A DNA stretch of 64,000 bases from Microbacterium keratanolyticum (GTDB lineage: Bacteria > Actinomycetota > Actinomycetes > Actinomycetales > Microbacteriaceae): assembly GCF_016907255.1 (NCBI RefSeq), contig NZ_JAFBBQ010000001.1:2108001-2172000 (forward strand). The letters are read 5' to 3'. The first letter of the stretch is position 1. Each line of letters begins with the position of its first letter. Shown here piece after piece: positions 11,786 through 56,136 of the stretch. The notes beneath the pieces were generated by a model. It did no database searches. It was not told the origin of the DNA and saw only the letters and a list, made by a program, of their open reading frames with translations. The position numbers and the translations under genes are program-made.

Positions 11786-12915
11786 ACGAACGCATCCACA
11801 TGTCCTCACCCGATGTCGGCGTGCGCGAGGAAGAGGCCGTCCTCGGCGCGATGCGGTCCGGGTGGATCGCTCCGCTGGGACCCGACGTGGATGCCTTCGA
11901 GCAGGAGCTCGCAGAACGAGTCGGCGTTGCGCACGCGGTCGCGCTGAGTTCGGGAACGGCCGCCCTGCACCTCGGGCTGCTCGCGCTGGGCGTAGGCCGC
12001 GGCGACATCGTCGTCACGTCGACCATGACGTTCGCGGCGACGACCAATGCGATCGTCTACACCGGGGCGGAGCCTTTCTTCGTCGACGCTGAAGTCACGA
12101 CGGGCAACATGGATCCTGCACTTCTGCGTAAGGCGCTGGAGTCGCTGCAGTCGGCAGGAGAGAAGGTCGCCGCCATCGTGCCCGTGGATCTTCTTGGGAA
12201 GACGATCGACTACACGAGCATTCTCGCGATCGCCGAAGAGTTCGGCGTGCCGGTGCTGTCCGATGCGGCCGAGTCCCTGGGAGCGACGCACGCAGGCCGC
12301 GCTGCAGGCAGCTTCGGACGTGCCTCCGCCGTCTCCTTCAACGGCAACAAGATCATGACCACCTCCGGTGGGGGAATGCTCCTCACCGACGATGCCGACA
12401 TCGCGCAGCGCACCCGGTACCTCGCGACGCAGGCGCGTCAGCCGGTGGTGCACTACGAGCACACGGACGTCGGGTACAACTACCGCATGAGCAACCTGCT
12501 CGCGGCGCTCGGTCGTGCTCAGCTTTCGCGCCTCGATGAGATGATCGGCCGGCGTCGCGAGATGCGACAGCTGTACAAAGACCTGTTCGCCGCGGTCGAC
12601 GGCGTCGAGATCTTCGGTGCGGCAGGCGATGAGAGCGACAACGTGTGGCTCACCTCGATCGTGGTCGATGAAGAAGTGTCCGGCTGGGCGTCGGCCGACC
12701 TCGCAGCGGCCCTCGCCGCACAGAACATCGAGAGCCGCCCGCTCTGGAAGCCGATGCACCTCCAGCCCGTCTTCGCGCACCATCGGGGCGTCATCTCGGG
12801 GGCATCCGAGGCGCTTTTCGCACGGGGGCTCACGCTTCCGAGCGGATCTGCTCTCGTGCCCGCCCAGCGCGAGCGGGTCACTGATGCCATCGACGAGTTC
12901 CTCCGTGCCCGCTGA
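11782..12915 (+). CDS. DegT/DnrJ/EryC1/StrS aminotransferase (PglE-like)
   Basis: 377 residues, GTG start overlapping the previous stop. PLP-fold type I motifs: ALSSGTAALHLGLLALGVG for phosphate binding, VLSDAAESLGATH and SFNGNKIMTTSGGGML, with the Schiff-base lysine near residue 190. It would aminate the 4-keto sugar made by the dehydratase to a UDP-4-amino-4,6-dideoxy sugar, as PglE does in bacillosamine synthesis. Placement between dehydratase and initiating transferase supports this. Confidence 0.9.
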   Translation: MNERIHMSSPDVGVREEEAVLGAMRSGWIAPLGPDVDAFEQELAERVGVAHAVALSSGTAALHLGLLALGVGRGDIVVTSTMTFAATTNAIVYTGAEPFFVDAEVTTGNMDPALLRKALESLQSAGEKVAAIVPVDLLGKTIDYTSILAIAEEFGVPVLSDAAESLGATHAGRAAGSFGRASAVSFNGNKIMTTSGGGMLLTDDADIAQRTRYLATQARQPVVHYEHTDVGYNYRMSNLLAALGRAQLSRLDEMIGRRREMRQLYKDLFAAVDGVEIFGAAGDESDNVWLTSIVVDEEVSGWASADLAAALAAQNIESRPLWKPMHLQPVFAHHRGVISGASEALFARGLTLPSGSALVPAQRERVTDAIDEFLRAR

Positions 12916-12916
12916 C

Positions 12917-13531
12917 ATGAGAAGCCGGCCGTACGATGTGCTCAAGCGTGCGCTCGATGTGCTCGCGGCGCTGATCGGTCTCATCCTGCTGTCACCGGTG
13001 ATGCTCGTCACGGCGATCCTTGTGGCGGCGCGGCTCGGTCGTCCCGTCGTCTTCGCCCAGCCCCGTCCGGGCAGGGGCGACCGCATCTTCACCCTCTACA
13101 AGTTCCGGTCCATGCGCGCTGTGGATGAGTCCCGTGGGTGGGTGAGTGACGCGCAGCGACTGACCCCGTTCGGGCGCCGACTGCGCTCCACCAGCCTGGA
13201 CGAGCTCCCCTCCCTGTGGAACGTGCTCCGCGGAGACATGAGCGTGGTCGGGCCGCGCCCGCTTCTCGTGGAGTATCTGGATCGTTACACACCTACGCAG
13301 GCGCGCCGACACGAGGTGCGCCCTGGGGTTACCGGTCTTGCACAGGTGAACGGTCGCAATGCACTCGGGTGGGAGGAGAAGTTCGCGCTCGATGTCGAGT
13401 ACGTCGAGCGGCGCTCGCTGGCGTTGGATGCCCGGATTCTCTGGGACACGGTGCGGTCGGTGATCGCCCGCGAGGGCATCAGCCAGGATGGCCAGGCGAC
13501 CGTTGAGAAGTTCGGGGGATCCCATGGCTGA
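12917..13531 (+). CDS. Initiating phosphoglycosyl transferase (PglC/WcaJ family)
   Basis: 204 residues (MRSRPYDVLKRALDVLAALI), near the size of minimal PglC enzymes. A single re-entrant hydrophobic helix (about 8-35) is followed by the bacterial sugar transferase domain: LYKFRSMRAVDE, FGRRLRSTSLDELPSLWNVL with the catalytic Asp-Glu, GDMSVVGPRPLL and RPGVTGLAQVNGRN. It transfers sugar-1-phosphate from UDP-sugar to undecaprenyl phosphate, starting each repeat unit. A GTG at 12905 is an in-frame alternative start. The stop overlaps the next gene. Confidence 0.92.
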   Translation: MRSRPYDVLKRALDVLAALIGLILLSPVMLVTAILVAARLGRPVVFAQPRPGRGDRIFTLYKFRSMRAVDESRGWVSDAQRLTPFGRRLRSTSLDELPSLWNVLRGDMSVVGPRPLLVEYLDRYTPTQARRHEVRPGVTGLAQVNGRNALGWEEKFALDVEYVERRSLALDARILWDTVRSVIAREGISQDGQATVEKFGGSHG

Positions 13532-44536: not shown

Positions 44537-45639
44537 CCGATCTGTTCCGTGAGGCCGTGATCGACCTCGACGCCATCAGCGACAACGTCCGTCACCTGCG
44601 TCGACTCACCGGCGTCGACGTCATCGGCATCGTGAAGGCCAACGCCTACGGGCACGGTGACGCCGCGGCCGCCGTGGCGGCGCTCGCCGGAGGCGCCACC
44701 CGCCTGGGTGCCGCGACGATCGATGAGGCGCTCGCGCTGCGGCGCCACGGCATCACGGCGCCGCTCATGGCGTGGCTGCACGCGCCGGGTGAGGACTTCC
44801 ACGCGGCCGCGGAGGCGCGCATCGAGGTCGGCGTCTCGTCCTTCGCTCAGATCGAGGCCGTAGGTCGCGCGGCGACGACCGAACCCGTCGGCGTGCACCT
44901 CAAGCTCGACACCGGACTCTCGCGCAGCGGCATCGCGCCCGCACAGTGGGAGCGGGTCTTCGCCGAGGCGGCGCGCCTGGAGCGCATCGGCCGCATCCGC
45001 ATCATCGGCCTCTTCAGCCACCTCTCCAACACCTCCGACGACGATGACCGAGCGGCGCTCGCCGAGTTCGAACGCGGCGTCGCGCTCGCAGCGGCATCCG
45101 GCATCCACCCGGAGATCCGACACCTCGCCGCGACCGCCGCCGCGATCGCGTTGCCCGAGACGCGCCTCGACGCTGTCCGCATCGGGATCGGCCTGTACGG
45201 CCTCTCGCCGTTCGACGATCGCACCTCCAGCGACTTGGGCCTGCGTCCGGCGATGACACTGCGCGCCGCTGTCGCCGCCGTGCGTCGTGTGCCCGCAGGC
45301 ACGGGCGTCTCCTACAACTATGTGCACCGCACCGCCGCCGAGACGACGCTCGCGCTCGTCCCGCTCGGCTATGCCGATGGCGTTCCGCGCCAGGCATCCG
45401 ACCTTGGGCCCGTCATGATCAACGGGCGGCGCTTCCGGGTCGCCGGGCGCATCGCGATGGATCAGTTCGTGGTCGATGTCGGCGACCATCCGGTCGACGT
45501 CGGCGATGAGGTCGTACTGTTCGGCGATCCGACGCTCGGTGTGCCTTCGGCCACGGAGTGGGCGGATGCTGCCCGCACGATCAACTACGAGATCGTGACC
45601 CGCATCGGCAATCGCGTGCCGCGCCGGAGTGTCTCGTGA
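44533..45639 (+). CDS. alr: Alanine racemase
   Basis: 368 residues, GTG start in the acpS stop. The PLP lysine lies in VDVIGIVKANAYGHGDAAAA, the opposite-face catalytic Tyr in GTGVSYNYVHRTAAE; LKLDTGLSRSGI and MDQFVVDVGDHPVDVGDEVV are further Alr marks. It makes D-Ala for peptidoglycan. The stop overlaps the tsaE start by 4 nt. Confidence 0.97.
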   Translation: MTDLFREAVIDLDAISDNVRHLRRLTGVDVIGIVKANAYGHGDAAAAVAALAGGATRLGAATIDEALALRRHGITAPLMAWLHAPGEDFHAAAEARIEVGVSSFAQIEAVGRAATTEPVGVHLKLDTGLSRSGIAPAQWERVFAEAARLERIGRIRIIGLFSHLSNTSDDDDRAALAEFERGVALAAASGIHPEIRHLAATAAAIALPETRLDAVRIGIGLYGLSPFDDRTSSDLGLRPAMTLRAAVAAVRRVPAGTGVSYNYVHRTAAETTLALVPLGYADGVPRQASDLGPVMINGRRFRVAGRIAMDQFVVDVGDHPVDVGDEVVLFGDPTLGVPSATEWADAARTINYEIVTRIGNRVPRRSVS

Positions 45640-46112
45640 CCCTCGCCGGACGCCGGGAGATCGCGACGTCCGACGGCATGGAGCGGCTGGGCCACGAGGT
45701 CGGCACGGCGCTTCGTGCGGGTGACGTCGTGATCCTCACGGGTCCGCTCGGCGCAGGCAAGACGACCTTCACGCGCGGCCTCGCGGAGGCGCTCGGAGTG
45801 CGCGGGCCAGTGCAGAGCCCCACGTTCGTGATCGCTCGCACACACCCCTCACTCGTGGGCGGTCCTGCCCTCGTGCACATGGACGCGTACCGTCTCGGGT
45901 CCGCCGCCGAGGTCGATGACCTCGACATCGACGTCGCGCGCTCCGTCGTGGTCGTCGAATGGGGACGGGGAATGGCGGAAGAGCTCGCCGACGAGTGGTG
46001 GGACATCGAGATCGAGCGCCCGATCGGCGCGCAGACGGATGCTCCGGACGAAGAACTCGACGCAGATGCACCGCGAGTCGTTACGATCGAACGTCGTACC
46101 GCTTCACGCTGA
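45636..46112 (+). CDS. tsaE: tRNA t6A synthesis ATPase TsaE
   Basis: 158 residues from GTG 45636. Walker A ILTGPLGAGKTTFTRGLAEA, QSPTFVIARTHP and the MDAYRL-W pattern (VHMDAYRLGSA, VVVEWGRG) define TsaE, partner of TsaB and TsaD in adding threonylcarbamoyl to A37. In related genomes tsaB follows directly; here a 7.8-kb cassette separates them. The acidic C terminus (DAPDEELDADAP) is an extension. Confidence 0.93.
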   Translation: MTLAGRREIATSDGMERLGHEVGTALRAGDVVILTGPLGAGKTTFTRGLAEALGVRGPVQSPTFVIARTHPSLVGGPALVHMDAYRLGSAAEVDDLDIDVARSVVVVEWGRGMAEELADEWWDIEIERPIGAQTDAPDEELDADAPRVVTIERRTASR

Positions 46113-46221
46113 TCCGACGGCGTTTCCCTTGGGACACGCCCGACCGGTAGGATATCGGCCGACTACCCCGTCGCGTGCGCCTGCGTTCAGTGACAGCCCC
46201 GAGAGATGAGCTTTCGCCTAC

Positions 46222-47031
46222 ATGACTGATCCATCCGCACAAACGCAGACCGCTGTGATCATCGAAGACGACGCCGCCGTCCGAAGTCTGCTCGACGAGG
46301 TCTTCCGGTCGGCCGGATTCCGCACGGTCATGGCCGAGACGGGCACCGACGGTGTCGAGGCGGTCATCGCGCACCAGCCGACGATCACGACCCTCGACAT
46401 CAACCTTCCCGGCATCGACGGCTTCGAAGTGGCCCGGCGCATCCGCAAGGTCAGCTCGACGTACATCATCATGCTGTCGGCGCTGGCAGAAGAGTCCGAC
46501 ATCGTGCTGGGGCTCGCCTCGGGCGCCGACGACTACCTGGCGAAGCCGTTCCGACCGCGAGAGCTGCGTGCCCGGATCGAGGCGCTGATGCGCCGCCCGC
46601 GCACCGAACTCACTGTTCCGGATGCTGCCACTGCCGCCGTGCCGGCACGCAACCCGGCCGTGTCGGCCGCGCTGGAGGATCTCGAGGGGGCCGCCGTCTG
46701 GCGCCTGCACCGCGATCTCAGCCTGAACCTGGAGACGCACACGGTTCTCGTCGCGCAGAAGGAAGTCGATCTGACTCCCACCGAGTTCGGACTGCTGGCG
46801 ACGCTTCTCGAATCGAAGCGCCGCGTGCGCAGCAAGGCCGACCTCGCGCTCGTTCTGCGCGGCGAGGCGTTCGCGTCGTCGTACTTCGTGGGTGAACCCG
46901 ACAAGCGGGTCATCGAAGCGCACATGGCGAACCTGCGACGCAAGATCGGCGACAACACGGCGGATCCGCGGTACATCGAGACCGTCCGCGGGGTGGGCTA
47001 TCGCCTCACCCCGCAGGTCGACGGTCGCTGA
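46222..47031 (+). CDS. OmpR/PhoB-type response regulator
   Basis: 269 residues. Receiver domain 10-125 has the acidic pocket IIEDDAAV, phospho-acceptor D59 in TLDINLPGIDGFEV, MLSALAEES and switch lysine DDYLAKPF. A long ~45-residue linker precedes the winged helix (EVDLTPTEFGLLATLLESK, then VIEAHMANLRRKIGD and YIETVRGVGYRLTPQ). It opens the cassette between tsaE and tsaB and ends immediately against the convergent GH18 gene. The probable partner kinase is at 51182, on the other side of the synthase genes. Confidence 0.93.
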   Translation: MTDPSAQTQTAVIIEDDAAVRSLLDEVFRSAGFRTVMAETGTDGVEAVIAHQPTITTLDINLPGIDGFEVARRIRKVSSTYIIMLSALAEESDIVLGLASGADDYLAKPFRPRELRARIEALMRRPRTELTVPDAATAAVPARNPAVSAALEDLEGAAVWRLHRDLSLNLETHTVLVAQKEVDLTPTEFGLLATLLESKRRVRSKADLALVLRGEAFASSYFVGEPDKRVIEAHMANLRRKIGDNTADPRYIETVRGVGYRLTPQVDGR

Positions 47032-48564
47032 CTACTCCTCGTCGATCAGCGCCCAGGGGGAGCGGTCGCGGTCGGTGATGCCATCGCTGGGCAGATCTCC
47101 CAACGTCCACCACTTCGCGCGGTAGCCCACACCTTCGAACATCACTCGGGCGCCCTTCTCGAAGGCCTGCGTCTCCGACCACTCGGGGTACGTCCCGGCG
47201 GGGAGGGTCGGCAGGGCGAACGGCTCATCATCCGGCATGACCGGGCCGACGAGCACCCAGGAGGTCTGGTCGGCCGTCGCGATGGGGTCGTCGGGCTGGG
47301 GGCCACCCGTCACCCACCACTTCGCGGAGTACACGTAGCCGTGCCAGACGACGCGCACGCCCGCGGAGTACGACGTCTCCGGTGACCAGATCGGGTAGGG
47401 GCTCGTCGCAGGGTCGTCGGGCACGGGGGTGAATGGCGTCGGCGCCGGGTCATCGCTCTCGAGCCGTTCCCCGTCGAAGCCGTTGGCGAGCACACCTGCG
47501 AACGACAGGCCGGCCTGATCGACGCCACTGCACGCATCCGACACGACCGAGAGGTCGGGGTAGTTCGTGCCGCACTGCCGGTCGCGGTTGAGTGACCACA
47601 TCGAAAGACGTGCGAGTTTCGCCTTGCGGGCGAAGGCGTTGAGCTCGCGCGCATCATCGATCGTGAAGACCTCGCTCGCGATGTCGTTCTGGCCGATCAT
47701 CGGCGTCGCACCGAGCACCGCCCAGGCGCCTTCGGCCGGGAGGCCGATGCGCAACTCCGCGTAGATGTCCGCGAGCTGATCGTGCGTGGCCTCCAGAGCC
47801 TCGATCGAGACGTCTGCGAGCGAGCGCCGGTTGAGGTCGGTGCCGTAGTTCATCGTCATGACGTTGACGCCGGCGAGATCGACGCCGCCGCGCAGCAGCG
47901 TGCGCACGGCCTGCAGGCCCTCGTCGGTGAGGCCATCGGTCGCGACCGGCAGCGTCACCCAGACATCCAGGCGACCGCCGGCAGCCTCGCGCTGCTGCTG
48001 CAGTGCGGCGACCGCATCCGCGCGGCGCTCGGCGGCGACCGTGTCGGCCAGGTTCTCGCCCTCGAGATCGAGGTCGATCGCCGTGATGTCGTAGCGGTCC
48101 AGAACCGCCGAGTACGCCTTCATGAGGTCCGGAACCGACGCGCAGGCCGAGGCCAGTTCGGTGTTGATCGCGCCACCGAAGGAGACCGCGACGTGCGTGC
48201 CGTCTCGGCGCATCTGGTCGACCCTGCGGTCGAGGTCGAGTTCGCTGCCTGCCTGCCGCAGGCCGTACGCACCGCCCCAGGTCGGCACGCAGCTCATATC
48301 GCTCTGCGCGACGATGAACGCGAGCACGACGGTGTCGGAAGCGTCGCTCGCGTTCGGCTGCTCCGAGACAGGCGCGGCGGTGACATCGAAGTAGCCACCG
48401 AACCAGTGCGGTCCCGCACCCGCGGTCGTGATGGGTGCGGTGCGCGACAGCTGCCACGGGACGACGATCGCTGCACCCGTGACGGCGAGGACGACGGCCA
48501 CGCCGATGAGCACGCGCAGCGGCGACAGGCGCTTTCCGGGGTGACGACCGGTACGGACACTCAT
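47032..48564 (-). CDS. Membrane-anchored GH18 chitinase-like protein with C-terminal binding modules
   Basis: 510 residues. A signal-anchor helix (LRVLIGVAVVLAVTGAAIVV, ~16-36) precedes a GH18 barrel with the catalytic line AIDLDLEGEN (acid Glu ~168) and VNVMTMNYG. Two C-terminal modules (YSAGVRVVWHGYVYSAKWW; FEKGARVMFEGVGYRAKWW) match chitin-binding CBM5/12. It overlaps the upstream synthase gene by 4 nt and is thus coupled to it. It probably trims or binds the polymer made by the synthase, a beta-1,4-GlcNAc-like chain if substrate follows family. It abuts the response regulator with no spacer. Confidence 0.85.
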   Translation of the reverse strand: MSVRTGRHPGKRLSPLRVLIGVAVVLAVTGAAIVVPWQLSRTAPITTAGAGPHWFGGYFDVTAAPVSEQPNASDASDTVVLAFIVAQSDMSCVPTWGGAYGLRQAGSELDLDRRVDQMRRDGTHVAVSFGGAINTELASACASVPDLMKAYSAVLDRYDITAIDLDLEGENLADTVAAERRADAVAALQQQREAAGGRLDVWVTLPVATDGLTDEGLQAVRTLLRGGVDLAGVNVMTMNYGTDLNRRSLADVSIEALEATHDQLADIYAELRIGLPAEGAWAVLGATPMIGQNDIASEVFTIDDARELNAFARKAKLARLSMWSLNRDRQCGTNYPDLSVVSDACSGVDQAGLSFAGVLANGFDGERLESDDPAPTPFTPVPDDPATSPYPIWSPETSYSAGVRVVWHGYVYSAKWWVTGGPQPDDPIATADQTSWVLVGPVMPDDEPFALPTLPAGTYPEWSETQAFEKGARVMFEGVGYRAKWWTLGDLPSDGITDRDRSPWALIDEE

Positions 48565-50963
48565 GCGGACACGCTCACGTTCTCATCGCGGGTTTCGGTG
48601 ACGGGGGAGGGGCGGCGGAAGTCGGCGTCGTCGGCGCCCACCGCGGGCACGGTGTCGTACCGAGGGGTGGCCGACGCAGGCAGCACGCTGCGCGTCTCCG
48701 CGGCACGACGGATCTCGTCGACGCCGCGCGCACCGGGAGCCGGGTGCCCCTCGTGCAGCACCGTCCGCCAGTCACGGGCCGGCGCAGCATCCGCTTCTCC
48801 TGCCGCCGCGGCGTCGGCGTCCTCCACCCACATCCAGTCCGTCAGCCCGTACCAGGTGTCCACGAGTGCGGCGCGGATGCCGACGTTCGCCAGGAACGAC
48901 CAGGTCGCCAGCGTCGCGTTGACGAGCGAGAACGCGAGCGTTCCCCACGACCCCTGCTGGAAGCTGATCCAGGCGATGAAGCCCGAGTACACGATGATCA
49001 CGATCGGCGCGACGATGTACAGCAGCGGAGCGCTGGTGCGGTCCTTGACCTTCGGCGTGCGTGCGAAGGGGATCTTCATGCCGGTGAGGCCCTGCTGGAT
49101 CGACTTGAGGACTCCGGCCATGTTCACGGGGAGCAGGATCAGGTTGAAGCCGTAGATCCGCAGCACATCCGTGCGCTTGTAGCCGCAGTACTTCAGGTCG
49201 CTCGCCATCGCGAGGAAGTACGGCAGCGCGCCCAGCAGGATGAACGGGCTCACGAGTCGGTTGTCGTAGGGGTAGACGAGCAGGAAGATCAGGCCCACGC
49301 TCGCCCAGGCGATCGAGGCCATGTAGTTCAGTCGCAGAGTGACTTCGCCGAGCGACAGCGGCGTGTAGGCGCGACGCTGCTCGCGCACGCGACGCCACAT
49401 CTTCGGCATGATCAGCAGACCGCCGTTCGCCCAGCGTCGACGCTGCACGATGAGTGAGCCGAAGTCCGGCGGCGTCGCGCTGTAGCTCAGACGCTCGGGG
49501 TAGTTCACGAGCTTCCAGCCGTGCACGGCGAGGTCGATGCTGGACTCGGTGTCTTCGATGACCGTGCGGTCCTGCACGTAGCGGCGGATCTCGAACCCGT
49601 TGTCGTTCTCGATCTCGAGAATGTCGTCGAGTGCCTCCATGCGGATGACGGCGTTCGCCCCGACCCAGAAGGTCGCGTTGTGATAGGTCATGCCCTGATG
49701 CAGGATGTGCTGCACGTCGGTTGTCGCACCTGCCAGCCGCTCCAGACGGGTGGGTGCACCGCGGAACGAGGAGTACGGCGTCTGCGTGACGGCGACGGTC
49801 GCGTTCTCGGGCTGCTCCAGGAAGTGCACGAGCCGCAGGCAGTAGTCGCGCAGCAGCAGCGAGTCGGCGTCGAGGGTCAGCACGAAGTCGGAGTAGGGGA
49901 TGTCGAGATCGGCCCGCGCGCCACCGGGGGCCGGTCGCAGCATGATGCCCTTCTCCGTGTGCTCCTCGACGAAGCGCCCACCGAGCAGTCCGATGTACGA
50001 GTTCAGGTTCATCGCCTTGTTCGCCTCGTGCGACAGCGAGATGTACTTCTTGCGCTCGAAGCTCGCGAGCTCGGCGGTGAAGATCCACACGAGGCGTCGC
50101 AGCAGCTCGTGCACGCGCTCGGCGGGGAGGGTCGAACCCTCGGCGATCGCAGTCCCCACTGCGATCGCCGAGGATTCGAGATCATCAGCCAGCCCGAGCA
50201 GAACCTCGTCGATGAAGAAGTCGTCGACGTGGTCCTCGCGCGGAACGCGGGCGGCAAATCTGTGCAGCCAGTCCACGGCGTCGTGGTACGCGCCTTCCAC
50301 GAGCAGGAGGCCATTCGCGGCATCCCAGTCCTCTTCGAACTCCTCCAGCGTGGTCTGGAACAGTGCGGCAGGCTCGGCCATCTCGAGGGCGATCTCCTGT
50401 GCGATACCGCGGGTCTCCGTCATCCGCGCGATGGCGCTCTCGCCCTGCGGGTTCGGGTTGTCGTCGATCAGGAGCACCACTCGCAGCGAGGGGTACTCCT
50501 GGAGTGCGGCTGACCAGAGCGTCTTGCGGATGACCGCCGGCTCCTCGGCGTACGACGGCACCAGGACGGTCAGCGGGCGGTGCGCGTGCGCGAAGTGCCG
50601 GTCGAGTTCGGCGCGGGGCGTGCGCTGGTGCGTACGGAACCGCTCGAAAGCTCCCTGTCGTGCGACGAGGTACATGAGGGCCGAGAAGGTGAGGAACGTC
50701 ACGACGATGACGTAGGACGCTCCTTCGATCACGCGCCAGGGCGTGTCGAACTCGCCCGCGAAGAACAGTGTCACGACCACCGTCAGCACATAGAGCATCC
50801 ACATCGCCACGGTCACCCAGATCGCGACACGACCGAGGATGAGCTTCGTGGTCGACGGGCGCTCGTGCACGGCGGGCAGTGGCGGCTTTGGGCGCTCAGC
50901 GCCCCATTGCCGACGGCGGCGCGGTGCAGGCGTCGTGTCGGGCACAGACGTCGTCTCGCTCAT
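48561..50963 (-). CDS. Processive GT2 (cellulose/chitin/hyaluronan synthase-like)
   Basis: 800 residues, ATG after GAGGAAAG. Two N-terminal helices (~45-65, 80-105), a large cytosolic GT-A domain with VLVPSYAEEPAVIRKTLWSA, LLIDDNPNPQG, TLDADSLLLRDY, EDTESSIDLAVHGW and the processive signature SLIVQRRRWANGG, then about five helices and an acidic tail. A ~180-residue insert sits between the first Asp motif and DxD, longer than in standard BcsA. There is no PilZ domain. Polymer identity is unknown; coupling with a GH18 gene suggests an aminosugar chain. Confidence 0.88.
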   Translation of the reverse strand: MSETTSVPDTTPAPRRRRQWGAERPKPPLPAVHERPSTTKLILGRVAIWVTVAMWMLYVLTVVVTLFFAGEFDTPWRVIEGASYVIVVTFLTFSALMYLVARQGAFERFRTHQRTPRAELDRHFAHAHRPLTVLVPSYAEEPAVIRKTLWSAALQEYPSLRVVLLIDDNPNPQGESAIARMTETRGIAQEIALEMAEPAALFQTTLEEFEEDWDAANGLLLVEGAYHDAVDWLHRFAARVPREDHVDDFFIDEVLLGLADDLESSAIAVGTAIAEGSTLPAERVHELLRRLVWIFTAELASFERKKYISLSHEANKAMNLNSYIGLLGGRFVEEHTEKGIMLRPAPGGARADLDIPYSDFVLTLDADSLLLRDYCLRLVHFLEQPENATVAVTQTPYSSFRGAPTRLERLAGATTDVQHILHQGMTYHNATFWVGANAVIRMEALDDILEIENDNGFEIRRYVQDRTVIEDTESSIDLAVHGWKLVNYPERLSYSATPPDFGSLIVQRRRWANGGLLIMPKMWRRVREQRRAYTPLSLGEVTLRLNYMASIAWASVGLIFLLVYPYDNRLVSPFILLGALPYFLAMASDLKYCGYKRTDVLRIYGFNLILLPVNMAGVLKSIQQGLTGMKIPFARTPKVKDRTSAPLLYIVAPIVIIVYSGFIAWISFQQGSWGTLAFSLVNATLATWSFLANVGIRAALVDTWYGLTDWMWVEDADAAAAGEADAAPARDWRTVLHEGHPAPGARGVDEIRRAAETRSVLPASATPRYDTVPAVGADDADFRRPSPVTETRDENVSVSA

Positions 50964-51181
50964 TGCTTTCCTCTTCCCCAGCGCCCGGACGGGGTAGTTT
51001 CGGGCGCCCCACAGTCAGGCTAGGGGCGCTGCTGCGCAGAAAGCGGGCCTGCGGTCTTTCTTCGAGTAATCTTGCGGCTGCGTTGAGCATCGGATGTCGC
51101 GCAGCAGGGCATGCTCTTTTGTGAGGGATGCACGCGGTCACCGAGCGCTCAGGATCAGGTGGCGCGTGGGAGAGGACAGGC

Positions 51182-52780
51182 ATGCGACGCAGCGCGTCTG
51201 TGTGGCGGTGGCAGCTCATGCTGGCCGCGAGCACCGTGCTCATCGTGGCGCTGATCGCCGCGTTCAGGCCAGAGATCTTCGGAACCCAGCCGTTCCTGTT
51301 CGGCATCTTCCTCATCACGGTGATCACGCTCGCAACGTTGCTGGTTCCCTGGCACCGTGTGCGCCCCGGTCTCATGCTCGTCGTTCCGTTCGCGGACATC
51401 CTGGCGGTGGGACTCGCCGCATCAGCGAGTGATGTGCGCCTGAGCTTCCTCTGGGTCTTCCCGGTGACCTGGATCGCCAGCTACTACGCGATGCCGACCA
51501 TCATCGCCGCGCTCGCTCTCATCAGTGTGTGCCTGGCGGCGCTCACGAACTCGAGCATCTCTCCGTCCGACATGCTGCTGCGCATCATCGTGACGGTGCT
51601 GTCGTTGGGCTTCCTCGCCACAACGATTCGCATCGGGACGCAACAGGCACGGGCAGCACGCCGTCTGCTGCTGAGCCAGTCTGAGCAGATGAACCGCATC
51701 GCGCAGCGCGCGGAGGCGCATGAGCACCGGGTGACGCAGATCATCGATTCCCTGGATCTCGCGCTCGCGGCCGTCACCGCCGAAGGTCGGATCGTGAAGG
51801 CCAATGACGCCTACCGGCAGCTCTATCGCCGGAGCGAGAGCGATGGCGATCTGCCCTCGCGCGCTGTCGAGTACGACGATCGCCAGGGTGAGCCACTGCC
51901 GCCCGAGTGCACCGCGGTGGCCCGCGCCGCGCGGGGAGACCATATGCAGGCCGAGCGCATGTGGCTCTTCGATACCGACGGCGAGTGGCGGGCGCTGCAG
52001 GTCTCTTCGCAGCCCATAGCGACCGTCGAGGATCGCGCCGGCATCGCCCTCTTGATCATCGAGGATGTGACGGCTCTGCTGGAGGCCGCGCAGGAGCGCA
52101 AGACGGTCGCAGCGATCGTCTCGCATGAACTGCGCAACCCGCTCACGGCGATCATCGGTCATGTCGATCTGCTGCGGGATCGCGATGATCTGCCCGAGCG
52201 GGTGCAGGAGCAGCTGAGCATCGTCGCCAGCGCGAGTGACCGGATGGAGCGGCTTGTCGCGCGCGTGATGGAGGAGAGCCATCCGGATGCGGCCGTGCTG
52301 TCGGAGCCCGTCGACCTGCGCCAGCTCGTCGACGCCTCGATTGCGTCCTTCCTGCCGATCGCGCAGTCGCACCACCTCACCCTCACCGTGGAGGGCGCCC
52401 AGACCCTGATGCTCTACGGCGACGCCTTCCGCCTTCGCCAGGTGATCGACAACCTCATCAGCAACGCCGTCAAGTACACGCCGTCCGGCGGGCGTGTCGT
52501 CGTCTGGCTCGGCGTCGCCCCGGACGGACAGGTCGACCTGCAGATCGCCGACACCGGTATGGGAATGGCGGATGAAGACCTCGCGCGGGTGTTCCAGCCG
52601 TACTTCCGTGCGGAGGCCGCCGCCGCCACGGACATCCCCGGCACAGGTCTCGGCATGGGTGTCGTCGAGGAGATCGTCCACCAGCACGGTGGGACGATCG
52701 GCGTCGGCAGCGTTCTGGGCGCCGGAACCACCGTTGCGGTGCGACTGCCCCGTAAGCCCCCGACAGAGGAGAGTCGATGA
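51182..52780 (+). CDS. Membrane sensor histidine kinase with PAS domain
   Basis: 532 residues from ATG 51182 after GGGAGAGG. Five to six helices within residues 10-155, a coiled linker, a PAS-like domain (~183-300) and the kinase core: VSHELRNPLTAIIGH with phospho-His near 315, FRLRQVIDNLISNAVKYTPS, IADTGMGMADEDLARVFQPY and GTGLGMGVVEEIV. Divergent from the synthase (218-nt spacer). Most likely partner of the response regulator at 46222. The next gene overlaps it by 4 nt. Confidence 0.92.
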   Translation: MRRSASVWRWQLMLAASTVLIVALIAAFRPEIFGTQPFLFGIFLITVITLATLLVPWHRVRPGLMLVVPFADILAVGLAASASDVRLSFLWVFPVTWIASYYAMPTIIAALALISVCLAALTNSSISPSDMLLRIIVTVLSLGFLATTIRIGTQQARAARRLLLSQSEQMNRIAQRAEAHEHRVTQIIDSLDLALAAVTAEGRIVKANDAYRQLYRRSESDGDLPSRAVEYDDRQGEPLPPECTAVARAARGDHMQAERMWLFDTDGEWRALQVSSQPIATVEDRAGIALLIIEDVTALLEAAQERKTVAAIVSHELRNPLTAIIGHVDLLRDRDDLPERVQEQLSIVASASDRMERLVARVMEESHPDAAVLSEPVDLRQLVDASIASFLPIAQSHHLTLTVEGAQTLMLYGDAFRLRQVIDNLISNAVKYTPSGGRVVVWLGVAPDGQVDLQIADTGMGMADEDLARVFQPYFRAEAAAATDIPGTGLGMGVVEEIVHQHGGTIGVGSVLGAGTTVAVRLPRKPPTEESR

Positions 52781-53934
52781 ATGCAGAGACGATGAGCATC
52801 GCGTTAGACGTGAATCTCGCGGTGTCGCTCGTGTCGCTTGTGACGCTGGCGACCGCATTCGTGATCGGGCTCGCGCTCCTGCCTCGGCCCAGCAAGGCCA
52901 CTGTGATCTGGGCCTCGGCGTTCGTCCTCGGCACACTCGGCACGTATTGCCTCGTGGCCGCAGGGCAGCTCGAGTCGCGTGCGCTGCGCGCATTGTCGTC
53001 TGCGGTGATGATGACCTTCATCCCGATCGTCTGGCTCGGACTGCGTGCGTACCTGGGAAAGCGGATGCCCTGGTTCAGCGTGGTCGGCTACTCCCTTGCC
53101 ATGCTGGTGGCGTTGCCGCTGCTGGCGGGGTTGCCCGAGTTCGCGATCGGATTCCGTCTCGCGTTTCTGGGCTCGGGTGTCTTCGCGGGGTTCCTGGCGT
53201 ATGAACTGACTCGTATGCGTGCGGTGCAGCGTGACATTCTGCTGCCGCTCATATTCGCTGCCTGCGCCTATGTGCTGATCACGGTGCTGGCCGCGATGGA
53301 CGCGATCACCCAGTTCGCGGCTCCTCGCGCAGATCCGCTCGCGGTGGTGCGTGACATCAACGGCGTGGGATCGCTCGTGGTGAGCCAGTGCGCCGCGCTC
53401 ACGATCGTGCTGCTCGTGCGCACCCAGCGTCGGCGCAACAGGGGAGGTGCCGGTGCGGTCGTGAATCAGCTGACTGAGCGCCTGGCACGCGCCGAAGCGC
53501 TGAAGGAGGCCGCCTGGTCGCTCATCGATATCCGTCTCGATAATCGCGAAGATCTGCGGATCGCGGCGAAGTCGCAGGGTTACGCTCACATTCTCGACAC
53601 CTTCCATGAGCGCGTGCGAGCAGGGCTGCCGGCCAGTGCCGACGTGCAGCGCATCGATGAAGCCCGCGTGGTGGCGTTGATCCCGGGATCTGAGCAGGCG
53701 GTGCGCCACCATCTGCGCATCCTGTTGGCGAAGATCTCGGCTCCGGATGAGGGGCGGGATGCGGCCGCGATCTCCCGCGTCTCCGCGAGCATCGGCTGGG
53801 CGTCGGTCGCAGAGGAGGGATACGAGTATCAGGCGCTGCTGGCGGCCGCAGCCCTCGGTGCCGCCGACGCGCAGGTGCTCGGCGGTGGCCGCTGGGGCCG
53901 AGCTCGCGAGCTCGCGGCTACCCTGGAAGGGTGA
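52777..53934 (+). CDS. Seven-helix membrane protein with degenerate GGDEF-like domain
   Basis: 385 residues. Seven hydrophobic helices (about 10-35, 42-62, 75-92, 101-120, 126-143, 154-173, 198-215), a coiled coil (QLTERLARAEALKEAAWSLI), then ~140 residues with the GGDEF-fold layout: SLIDIRLDNREDLRIAAK in place of the DxDxFKxxND segment, and RIDEARVVALIPG (292-304) where R-x-GGDEF is expected. The catalytic GGDEF residues are absent, so it cannot be a normal diguanylate cyclase; it may sense a ligand or nucleotide. Coupled to the kinase gene and overlapping tsaB by 4 nt. Confidence 0.68.
   Translation: MNAETMSIALDVNLAVSLVSLVTLATAFVIGLALLPRPSKATVIWASAFVLGTLGTYCLVAAGQLESRALRALSSAVMMTFIPIVWLGLRAYLGKRMPWFSVVGYSLAMLVALPLLAGLPEFAIGFRLAFLGSGVFAGFLAYELTRMRAVQRDILLPLIFAACAYVLITVLAAMDAITQFAAPRADPLAVVRDINGVGSLVVSQCAALTIVLLVRTQRRRNRGGAGAVVNQLTERLARAEALKEAAWSLIDIRLDNREDLRIAAKSQGYAHILDTFHERVRAGLPASADVQRIDEARVVALIPGSEQAVRHHLRILLAKISAPDEGRDAAAISRVSASIGWASVAEEGYEYQALLAAAALGAADAQVLGGGRWGRARELAATLEG
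53919..53924 (+). promoter_or_regulatory. -10 hexamer before tsaB
   Basis: TACCCT, exactly 6 nt before GTG 53931, inside the end of the preceding gene. GGAAGG between them could also serve as a ribosome-binding site, so either mode is possible. Confidence 0.35.
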
Positions 53935-54554
53935 TCCTCGCCGTCGACACCTCCCTGGGCACTGCCATCGCCGTCATCGACGGTGCCGGCGCGATCTGCG
54001 CGGAGCGTGCGGCGGTCGATCCGCTCGGGCACGTTGAAGTCATCGGCGAGATGCTCGCAGAGACCCTGCAGGACGCCGGAGCGGAGCCAATCACGCACGT
54101 CGTCGCCGGCATGGGGCCGGGGCCGTTCACCGGGTTGCGCATCGGCATCGCCACGGCGCGTGCGGTTGCTCTGGCGCGAGCTATCACGGTCGTCCCGGTG
54201 CCGAGCCACTTCGCAGCCGCGCTGACCGAGATCGAGGCGGATGCCGCTGCGGGCCGCTTCGCGATCGTGACCGATGCGCGCCGGCGCGAGGTCGCCGTCA
54301 CCGTGTTCGACGGTCTTGATGCCGACGGTATCCCGCATGTCGTCGCCGACACGGTGCTCGTGCTGCGTGCCGATGCAGAGGCGCACCTCGCGGGGATTCG
54401 CGCTGTCGAGGTCACCGCGCTCTCCGCCGCAGCACTCGCACGGGTCGGCCAGCGTGCGCTCGCCGCCGGCCGCGATCTCACAGACAGCGAGCCGCTCTAC
54501 CTGCGCCAGCCCGACGTCGCACAGCCACGCGCTCCGAAACAGGTCGGATCATGA
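53931..54554 (+). CDS. tsaB: tRNA t6A synthesis protein TsaB
   Basis: 207 residues, GTG start. ASKHA-fold protein beginning MILAVDTSLGTAIAVIDGAG with the family mark VVAGMGPGPFTGLRIGIATA. It is the non-catalytic partner of TsaD in N6-threonylcarbamoyladenosine synthesis. It overlaps rimI by 4 nt; tsaB-rimI-tsaD is the standard order, cut off from tsaE by the GT2/GH18 cassette. Confidence 0.94.
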   Translation: MILAVDTSLGTAIAVIDGAGAICAERAAVDPLGHVEVIGEMLAETLQDAGAEPITHVVAGMGPGPFTGLRIGIATARAVALARAITVVPVPSHFAAALTEIEADAAAGRFAIVTDARRREVAVTVFDGLDADGIPHVVADTVLVLRADAEAHLAGIRAVEVTALSAAALARVGQRALAAGRDLTDSEPLYLRQPDVAQPRAPKQVGS

Positions 54555-55054
54555 TCCGACCCGCCGGAGCATCCGATCTCGACGCGATCATGCGCATCGA
54601 GACCGCATCCTTCCCGACCGACGCCTGGAGTGCCGAGATGATGGCGGCCGAGCTCCTCTCCGAGCACGGTCGCTACTTCGTCGATGACGAGTTCGGAGAG
54701 ATCGTCGGCTACGGGGGAGTGCGCGCACTGCGCGGATCCAGCGACGCCGATATCCAGACGATCGCGCTCGACGCCGCTCACCGCGGGGCCGGACGCGGGC
54801 GGGCGCTCCTGCGCGCGTTACTCGGCGAGGCATCCGACCGCGGCGCGAACGAGGTGTTCCTCGAAGTGCGCGCCGACAACCCCACGGCCGAGAAGCTGTA
54901 CAGCTCCGAGGGGTTCGCCGAACTCGGCCGCCGCCCGCGCTACTACCAGCCCGACGACGTCGACGCGATCGTGATGCGGCTCGATCTGCGCGTCTGGCGT
55001 GAGCGCGACGCATCCGCGACATCCGATTCCGCGACCGAGGAGAGCACCGCATGA
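54551..55054 (+). CDS. rimI: Ribosomal protein S18-alanine N-acetyltransferase RimI
   Basis: 167 residues, GNAT fold. The acetyl-CoA loop is [18 protein letters not shown], followed by [20 protein letters not shown] and [20 protein letters not shown], the RimI/ArdI core. The C-terminal ~20 residues are a Ser/Thr/Glu tail. Coupled by 4-nt overlaps to tsaB and tsaD on both sides. Confidence 0.92.
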
Positions 55055-56136
55055 CCACCGCCCCCCTGGTTCTCGGCATCGAGACGAGCTGCGACGAGAC
55101 CGGCATCGGCATCGTCCGCGGCCGCACCCTGCTGTCGAACACGATCGCGTCCAGCATGGACGAGCACGCCCGCTACGGCGGCGTCGTCCCCGAGGTCGCC
55201 GCGCGTGCCCACCTTGAGGCGCTGGAGCCGTCGATCGAACAGGCGCTCGCCGAGGCACAGGTGCGCCTGGAGGATCTCGACGCGATCGCCGTGACCAGCG
55301 GGCCGGGTCTTGCAGGAGCACTCATGGTCGGCATCGGTGCCGCCAAGGGGCTCGCCGCCGCGCTCGACAAGCCGCTGTACGCGGTCAACCATCTCGTCGG
55401 ACACATCGCCGCTGACATCCTCGCGGGAGACGCAGAATCTGCGCCTCTCGAGTATCCGACGATCGCGCTGCTGGTGAGCGGCGGGCACACCTCTCTGCTG
55501 CACGTACGCGACCTCACGACCGACGTCGAGATGCTCGGCGAGACGATGGACGACGCGGCCGGCGAGGCCTTCGACAAGGTCGCGCGCCTGCTCGGCCTGC
55601 CCTACCCCGGTGGGCCGGAGATCGACCGTGCGGCCGTCGGCGGCGACCCGCAGGCGATCCGCTTCCCGCGCGGACTCTCCCGGGCCTCAGACATGGCGAA
55701 GCACCGCTACGACTTCTCGTTCTCCGGTCTCAAGACGGCCGTCGCCCGCTGGGTCGAACAGCAGGAGGCGACGGGGGAGCCGGTGCCCGTCGCGGATGTT
55801 GCGGCGAGCTTCCGCGAGGCCGTCGTGGATGTGCTGGTCACGAAGGCGCTCGCAGCCTGCAAGGATCTCGGCGTTCCGCGCCTTCTGCTCGGCGGCGGCG
55901 TCATCGCGAACCGACGCCTGCGTGACGTCGCCTTGGAGCGGGCGGCAGAGGCCGGGGTGAGTGTGCGGATTCCCCCGCTGTCGCTGTGCACCGACAACGG
56001 AGCGATGATCGCAGGGCTGGCCGCAGAGCTCATCGCGTCGGGGCGTCGCCCGTCCACGCTCGCGTTCGGCGCCGACTCGACGCTGCCCGTGACCGAGATC
56101 CAGGTCGCCGAACGGGAGGCCGTCGATGTCGGATGA
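55051..56136 (+). CDS. tsaD: tRNA threonylcarbamoyltransferase TsaD
   Basis: 361 residues. [20 protein letters not shown], the metal-binding [10 protein letters not shown] (H-x3-H), [29 protein letters not shown] and [13 protein letters not shown] identify TsaD (Kae1/Gcp), the catalytic subunit that transfers threonylcarbamoyl to A37 of ANN-decoding tRNAs. It overlaps the following small membrane-protein gene by 11 nt. Confidence 0.97.

Follow-up and report, generated by a model that had tools for sequence, protein, structure and literature searches.

What are five genes for a polysaccharide synthase, a hydrolase and a set of regulators doing between tsaE and tsaB? The question is raised by a 64,000-nucleotide stretch of Microbacterium keratanolyticum DNA (contig NZ_JAFBBQ010000001.1, positions 2,108,001 to 2,172,000; hereafter the window), which comes from a 3.07 Mb genome assembled as a single contig. 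The original prediction was that the five genes, which it placed in a split tsa cluster, form a self-contained system with a synthase and its cognate hydrolase under shared control; open reading frames (ORFs) and profile matches confirm the interposition at the coordinates listed below. We favor, with rather better than even confidence, a composite locus: a probably chitin-type output module, consisting of a family 2 glycosyltransferase (GT2) and a family 18 glycoside hydrolase (GH18), joined to a control module of histidine kinase (HK), response regulator (RR) and a protein with a dead GGDEF domain, the two mostly evolving apart and the output module being exchanged. The genes and the central intergenic region are as follows.

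45558..46112, + strand: tsaE (TIGR00150, 76 bits against a cutoff of 60.1; PF02367, E 5.7e-32); the longest ORF is given, and the true start is probably further in
46222..47031, + strand: OmpR/PhoB-type response regulator (RR, P0001), with PF00072 and PF00486 above cutoff
47032..48564, - strand: GH18 chitinase-like hydrolase (P0002), with two CBM5/12 carbohydrate-binding modules and, N-terminally at 12-40, one hydrophobic segment
48561..50963, - strand: processive GT2 membrane synthase (P0003), without a PilZ match in the Pfam scan
50964..51127, no strand: divergent GT2/HK intergenic region of 164 bp, from the gene arrangement
51128..52780, + strand: membrane sensor histidine kinase (HK, P0004), with HisKA and HATPase_c above cutoff and a weak PAS_4 match below cutoff
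52777..53934, + strand: membrane protein (P0005), with about seven helices and, at residues ~224-379, a degenerate GGDEF domain
53931..54554, + strand: tsaB (TIGR03725, 107 bits against a cutoff of 69.3)
54551..55054, + strand: rimI (TIGR01575, 112 bits against a cutoff of 86.4)
55051..56136, + strand: tsaD (TIGR03723, 421 bits against a cutoff of 296)

The GT2 and GH18 genes are one unit, and the coupling of synthase to hydrolase that had been proposed is supported. Among 96 pair loci (80 named loci, which are the top matches among 319 confirmed relatives, 15 stretches of further genomes, and the locus of the window, with L003 and L123 coming from the same genome) GH18 adjoins GT2 in 93, and of the three without a GH18 match two (L045 and L064) are cut off by a contig edge close to GT2, and L171 is a genuine exception. 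The two genes share a strand in 88 loci, with an exact ATGA or GTGA overlap in 57, and lie on opposite strands in five (L060, L063, L070, L077 and L168). Pairwise distances of the GT2s and GH18s correlate (r 0.88, against at most 0.18 in permutations; kinship not removed), and the matches listed include a natural GT2-GH18-CBM5/12 fusion of 1293 aa. Of 249 Microbacteriaceae genomes sampled, 54 have the pair's GT2, in 34 of 85 genera, and 10 of 89 Microbacterium genomes match it strongly. Outside this family the pair was found in Micrococcaceae, a Nocardioides, and contigs of metagenome-assembled genomes (MAGs) named Patescibacteria or Chloroflexota; two wider homologue scans scored 8000 candidates each, one listing 120 of 5312. 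A Microbacterium-like GT2-GH18-RR on a contig filed as Stenotrophomonas maltophilia (L005) is probably contamination of that assembly.

P0003 is a membrane synthase of the BcsA/CESA fold whose catalytic motifs fit a processive GT2. The LDADS motif, the ED of IEDTES, and the Q, R and W of QxxRW are kept in all 95 GT2 rows, hydrophobic helices flank the glycosyltransferase domain on both sides, and about 130 additional, mostly helical residues separate the first two aspartate motifs by comparison with the spacing in BcsA. P0002 carries CBM5/12 in two stretches (PF02839, E 4.8e-10), resembles solved chitinases (exochitinase 9buf, E 1.5e-48 by phmmer; 2dsk, E 4.6e-24), has the GH18 DxxDxDxE catalytic motif, as DLDLE in 92 of 92 ungapped homologue rows, and is probably membrane-anchored. 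In M. ginsengisoli a 1507-aa ORF (L008:5002-9525) upstream of the GH18 gene contains a GT2 followed by about 740 residues without a Pfam match (E 0.001).

The regulators form a second recurrent group. HK and RR have the make-up of a two-component system (a HisKA-HATPase kinase, its six hydrophobic segments partly overlapping, and a receiver-DNA-binding regulator) and may be phosphotransfer partners; P0005 has a GGDEF fold. A regulator similar to P0001 lies near HK-P0005 in many relatives, and 59 of 63 loci with this trio, those with both proteins long enough, could be placed in a tree (the four not placed include G022, L128). In 26 of the 59 rows the RR-HK gap holds, on the opposite strand, a second GT2 of about 500 aa (with partial matches in L160, L172 and L174), and in nine more this GT2 lies nearby, a total of 35 with the other synthase; a family 6 glycoside hydrolase (GH6) gene accompanies it in 32 of these 35. 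The GT2-GH18 pair fills the gap in six rows (five genomes of Microbacterium and Gulosibacter, window included), and 18 rows, several of them short contigs, have neither synthase. Family loci were fetched for 36 of the 64 genomes that matched: the second GT2 is in 16 of these loci, 14 times with GH6, and the pair is in one. From these counts, a synthase often occupies the RR-HK slot, and in the window's clade the occupant is the pair. Across 89 genomes P0005 and the second GT2 co-occur (39 both, 16 P0005 only, 6 GT2 only, 28 neither; P 1e-6), and no second GT2 was found in the source genome at E 1e-60. That a two-component system and a non-catalytic GGDEF-fold protein often stand beside polysaccharide synthases thus agrees with the prediction.

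Because many relatives have a similar control module next to a different synthase and a GH6 hydrolase, we propose that the output module was exchanged in the window's clade, a swap that would be functional. M. aurantiacum (L002) has both systems: a second GT2 with trio and GH6, and a GT2-GH18 pair about 2 kb from that GH6, its GT2 lying next to the window's clade in the GT2 tree. In several Microbacterium trio loci other genes recur, namely two that lie between HK and the second GT2 and match no Pfam family (L158:10829-11806 and 11908-12921) and a DUF4012 protein beside P0005 (L158:5560-7317).

In the mechanism that we envisage, the GT2 would polymerize a UDP-sugar, most likely UDP-N-acetylglucosamine (UDP-GlcNAc), and thread the beta-linked chain outward through its own membrane channel, and the GH18 would grip the emerging chain by its two CBM5/12 modules and trim it at the cell surface. 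HK and RR would set transcription, probably from the divergent region at 50964..51127, which from the gene arrangement is the likely promoter region of both the GT2 and the HK transcripts. At the membrane, P0005 would partner or sense either the synthase or the kinase, through a ligand or through protein contact, and would be neither a cyclase nor a canonical I-site receptor. The exchange would be a natural experiment in which similar kinases and dead-GGDEF proteins are found with two different synthases, so that sensing by the dead GGDEF protein is separable from the synthase product. A bolder version is a plug-in architecture in which one Microbacteriaceae regulator set, its dead GGDEF protein lacking the I-site, drives either a GH6-paired synthase or a true chitin synthase with its own GH18, and in which this second module reached Patescibacteria and Chloroflexota as one piece. 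It would be a bacterial chitin exopolysaccharide system under a new kind of GGDEF-derived sensor; we hold it tentatively and think it somewhat unlikely.

The composite reading has evidence against it on two sides, linkage and product. As to linkage, P0005 and the pair are not associated over the 89 genomes (8 both, 47 P0005 only, 2 pair only, 32 neither; P 0.31). Ten Microbacterium genomes match the GT2 strongly: two have it linked to the trio, six have the trio elsewhere and two have no P0005 match. Of 20 family genomes that carry both the pair's GT2 and a P0163-type protein, 16 have them widely separated or on separate contigs. The trio of ten loci of the window's tsa-located regulator clade (L124-L133) has no synthase in the RR-HK gap, 19 of the 36 family loci have none of the searched synthases, and most pair loci lack GGDEF or EAL neighbors (three GGDEF and three EAL matches among 124 neighbor genes, being 121 of 141 plus three from L002, with the 25 commonest families shown). 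No sigma-70-like promoter match was found in 45900-54200. The usual lack of linkage, the absent association and the ten pairless loci of the regulator clade are the grounds for supposing that the pair came to lie in the RR-HK gap by chance and that the regulators control something else, with no common function. We consider this unlikely: the same gap is the slot of another synthase in 26 of 59 rows, the five genomes of the clade are arranged alike and have GT2s that group together as one clade, and linkage recurs outside it. In a Subtercola MAG (L080) the pair adjoins a kinase and a degenerate GGDEF protein, the five gene types being together in another arrangement, and in one further genus the pair's GT2 lies at most 4.6 kb from a P0163-type protein in all four genomes that carry both, with a GGDEF-EAL gene between them in L231, the one locus read. 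By a crude estimate, the chance that one or more of 13 genera would show linkage within 5 kb is 0.04; 11 genera actually carry both.

The proposed control of the pair by the trio rests on recurrent linkage, and since this linkage is found in five genomes, a Subtercola MAG and one other genus, the idea of a synthase and cognate hydrolase under shared control is partly sustained. A self-contained cassette of five genes is not supported: another synthase accompanies the trio in 35 of 59 rows, only two of the ten strong-GT2 Microbacterium genomes link it to the trio, and the comparison of joint gain and loss that the original prediction had suggested as a check found P0005 and the pair not associated in presence (P 0.31), the independent occurrence that it had itself set against a cassette.

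As to the product, the closest sequence and fold matches of P0003 are cellulose synthases. The PF00704 match of P0002 (18.6 bits) is under the Pfam GH18 cutoff of 29.6, and its MTM(D/N)Y motif carries Asn at a position that is Asp in 72 of 93 homologues. The GH6 contrast between the two synthases is indirect evidence, and the best NCBIfam match of the second GT2 is the poly-N-acetylglucosamine (PNAG) synthase PgaC/IcaA, far below cutoff at 52 of 422 bits; only GH6 would argue for a cellulose-like product of that enzyme. GH18 enzymes acting on peptidoglycan exist. In Streptomyces, according to passages of PMC11022532, the CslA-GlxA-CslZ system has a cellulose synthase with a neighboring hydrolase, and this CslZ hydrolyzes cellulose, peptidoglycan and alpha-chitin, so the family of a synthase-linked hydrolase is weak evidence for a sugar. 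The GT2 might then make a cellulose-like or mixed glucan, with the GH18 acting elsewhere, as on peptidoglycan or environmental chitin. This we judge quite unlikely, as GH18 tracks the synthase in adjacency, in co-divergence and in the fusion, and the other synthase of similar loci tracks GH6; because different hydrolases go with different synthases, matched polymers can be argued. A GlcNAc polymer is what the composite reading would predict, an aminosugar assignment weakly suggested by the GH18/CBM5-12 partner.

P0005 itself departs from the nucleotide sensor that had been predicted. GG[DE]EF is found in none of 33 close homologues and in one of 97 in a wider set, fragments included, that one (L238) aligning as a canonical cyclase; the I-site stretch of P0005 reads LPASAD in place of RxxD, with Pro (P285) at the Arg position invariant in the 33-row alignment, and 14 of 15 rows read also lack this Arg, L238 again being the exception. 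As both motifs are lost, canonical cyclic di-GMP (c-di-GMP) binding by P0005 is not supported, although its GGDEF domain may have another ligand. The idea that P0005 is the c-di-GMP receptor of a PelD/PssE-type exopolysaccharide machine gated by that nucleotide can draw on the degenerate GGDEF receptors of Listeria Pss (PMC4125290) and Bacillus Pel (PMC7112168) as presented in passages of those papers, on GGDEF-EAL genes close to the pair in L060, L070, L077 and L231, and on two GGDEF-family genes above the Pfam cutoff in the source genome (counted by profile match alone), but is the most doubtful of these alternatives, since known receptors use an intact RxxD and the GT2 has no PilZ match. 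Control of the GT2 through PilZ was dropped for the latter reason.

Control of exopolysaccharide by a degenerate GGDEF protein is already known, as is a synthase with a neighboring hydrolase. Passages of PMC4125290 and PMC7112168 describe how PssE of Listeria and PelD of Bacillus and Pseudomonas act through an RxxD I-site; these systems share with ours glycosyltransferase genes with a non-catalytic GGDEF protein, but P0005 lacks RxxD, the hydrolase here is GH18 and a two-component system is in the locus. With BcsA-BcsB-BcsZ and CslA-GlxA-CslZ (PMC11022532, in part) the pair has in common the processive GT2 fold, DxD, ED and QxxRW motifs and an adjoining hydrolase gene; unlike bacterial cellulose synthases, P0003 scores 74.3 bits against the TIGR03030 (BcsA) cutoff of 699.1 and has no PilZ match, and the hydrolase is chitinase-like. 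Neither BcsB nor a deacetylase family was matched among ten genes scanned (GlxA was not looked for by name). PNAG systems (PgaABCD, IcaADBC) combine a GT2 with a glycan-active partner enzyme and in this resemble the pair, but P0003 is far below the TIGR03937 cutoff (47.7 bits against 422). The proposed GlcNAc polymer from a GT2 is shared with bacterial chitin synthases (NodC and the fungal-type CHS), although P0003 matches NodC (18 of 550 bits) and Chitin_synth_2 (15 of 27 bits) only marginally; the passages of PMC5122149 report a eukaryotic origin, by transfer, for chitin synthases of Dickeya, Pectobacterium and others, and 'actinobacteria' is absent from its main text. The survey of synthase-dependent operons in PMC7112194 covers cellulose, acetylated cellulose, PNAG, alginate and Pel, and its main text lacks 'chitin' and 'GH18'; a pair present in about one-fifth of sampled Microbacteriaceae and in Patescibacteria-named MAGs would add a candidate chitin-type polymer to this list. 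Titles and passages of the open-licence literature yielded no earlier description of the GT2-GH18 pair.

Twelve pair loci (L012, L016, L023, L034, L041, L043, L049, L050, L051, L058, L072 and L081) are named Saccharibacteria, Collierbacteria, Levyibacteriota, Chloroflexota or 'bacterium'. All are metagenome-assembled records, and they form one clade among actinobacterial GT2s (99 in the Shimodaira-Hasegawa-like approximate likelihood ratio test, SH-aLRT) in a tree that flags an odd letter make-up in most Patescibacteria rows, which may group rows falsely, and a long branch for L171. One of the twelve is on a 1.16-Mb contig of a 1.2-Mb genome whose TsaD, at 1.04 Mb of C1 and apparently on the same contig, is 50% identical to that of the window, against 86-91% for Microbacterium TsaDs, which fits a real non-actinobacterial genome. 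No 16S was found in any of nine genomes searched, and TsaD served in its place. The named record of Reticulibacter mediterranei has, among the matches listed, a GT2 that is 60% identical. Horizontal transfer is the simplest reading of the pair outside Actinobacteria.

The history of the tsa-located loci can be read in part from the trees, all quick builds with SH-aLRT support only. In the regulator tree (HK plus P0005) the tsa-located trios entered and that of Gulosibacter form a clade of 15 (100), within which the pair-bearing rows are spread at the base and eight pairless rows make up a derived clade (100), so loss of the pair is likelier than late insertion. Probably, then, the five-gene set was present early and the pair was lost once, an account weakened by the midpoint rooting and by a ninth pairless row at the ambiguous base (L129, its regulator only 37% identical). 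For the same reason a pairless tsa-located trio as the pre-insertion state was dropped. The GT2 tree independently groups the window with L003/L123, L004, L006 and L076 (99). The pair is beside tsaB in the window, L003/L123, L004 and L076, and tsaE also adjoins it only in the window and L076 (in G078 tsaE is on another contig); Gulosibacter L006 has no tsa gene within its 22 kb, and the pair as a member of the tsa cluster was likewise dropped.

Within the window the RR and GH18 genes meet stop to stop, overlaps of 4 nt join GT2 to GH18, HK to P0005 and P0005 to tsaB, and the five genes have a G+C of 0.66-0.69 against 0.70 in the tsa flanks. Searches of the locus for promoters, terminators and RNA elements gave nothing above chance, and no Rfam match. 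In Microbacterium G040, G077, G029, G060 and G002 (L124-L127, L130) tsaB lies about 30-39 kb from tsaE and the trio adjoins tsaE; the gap between tsaE and tsaB may be a hotspot for insertion. In G007 (C1:1864074-1864705) tsaB matches as two overlapping pieces in different frames, possibly a frameshift or an assembly error.

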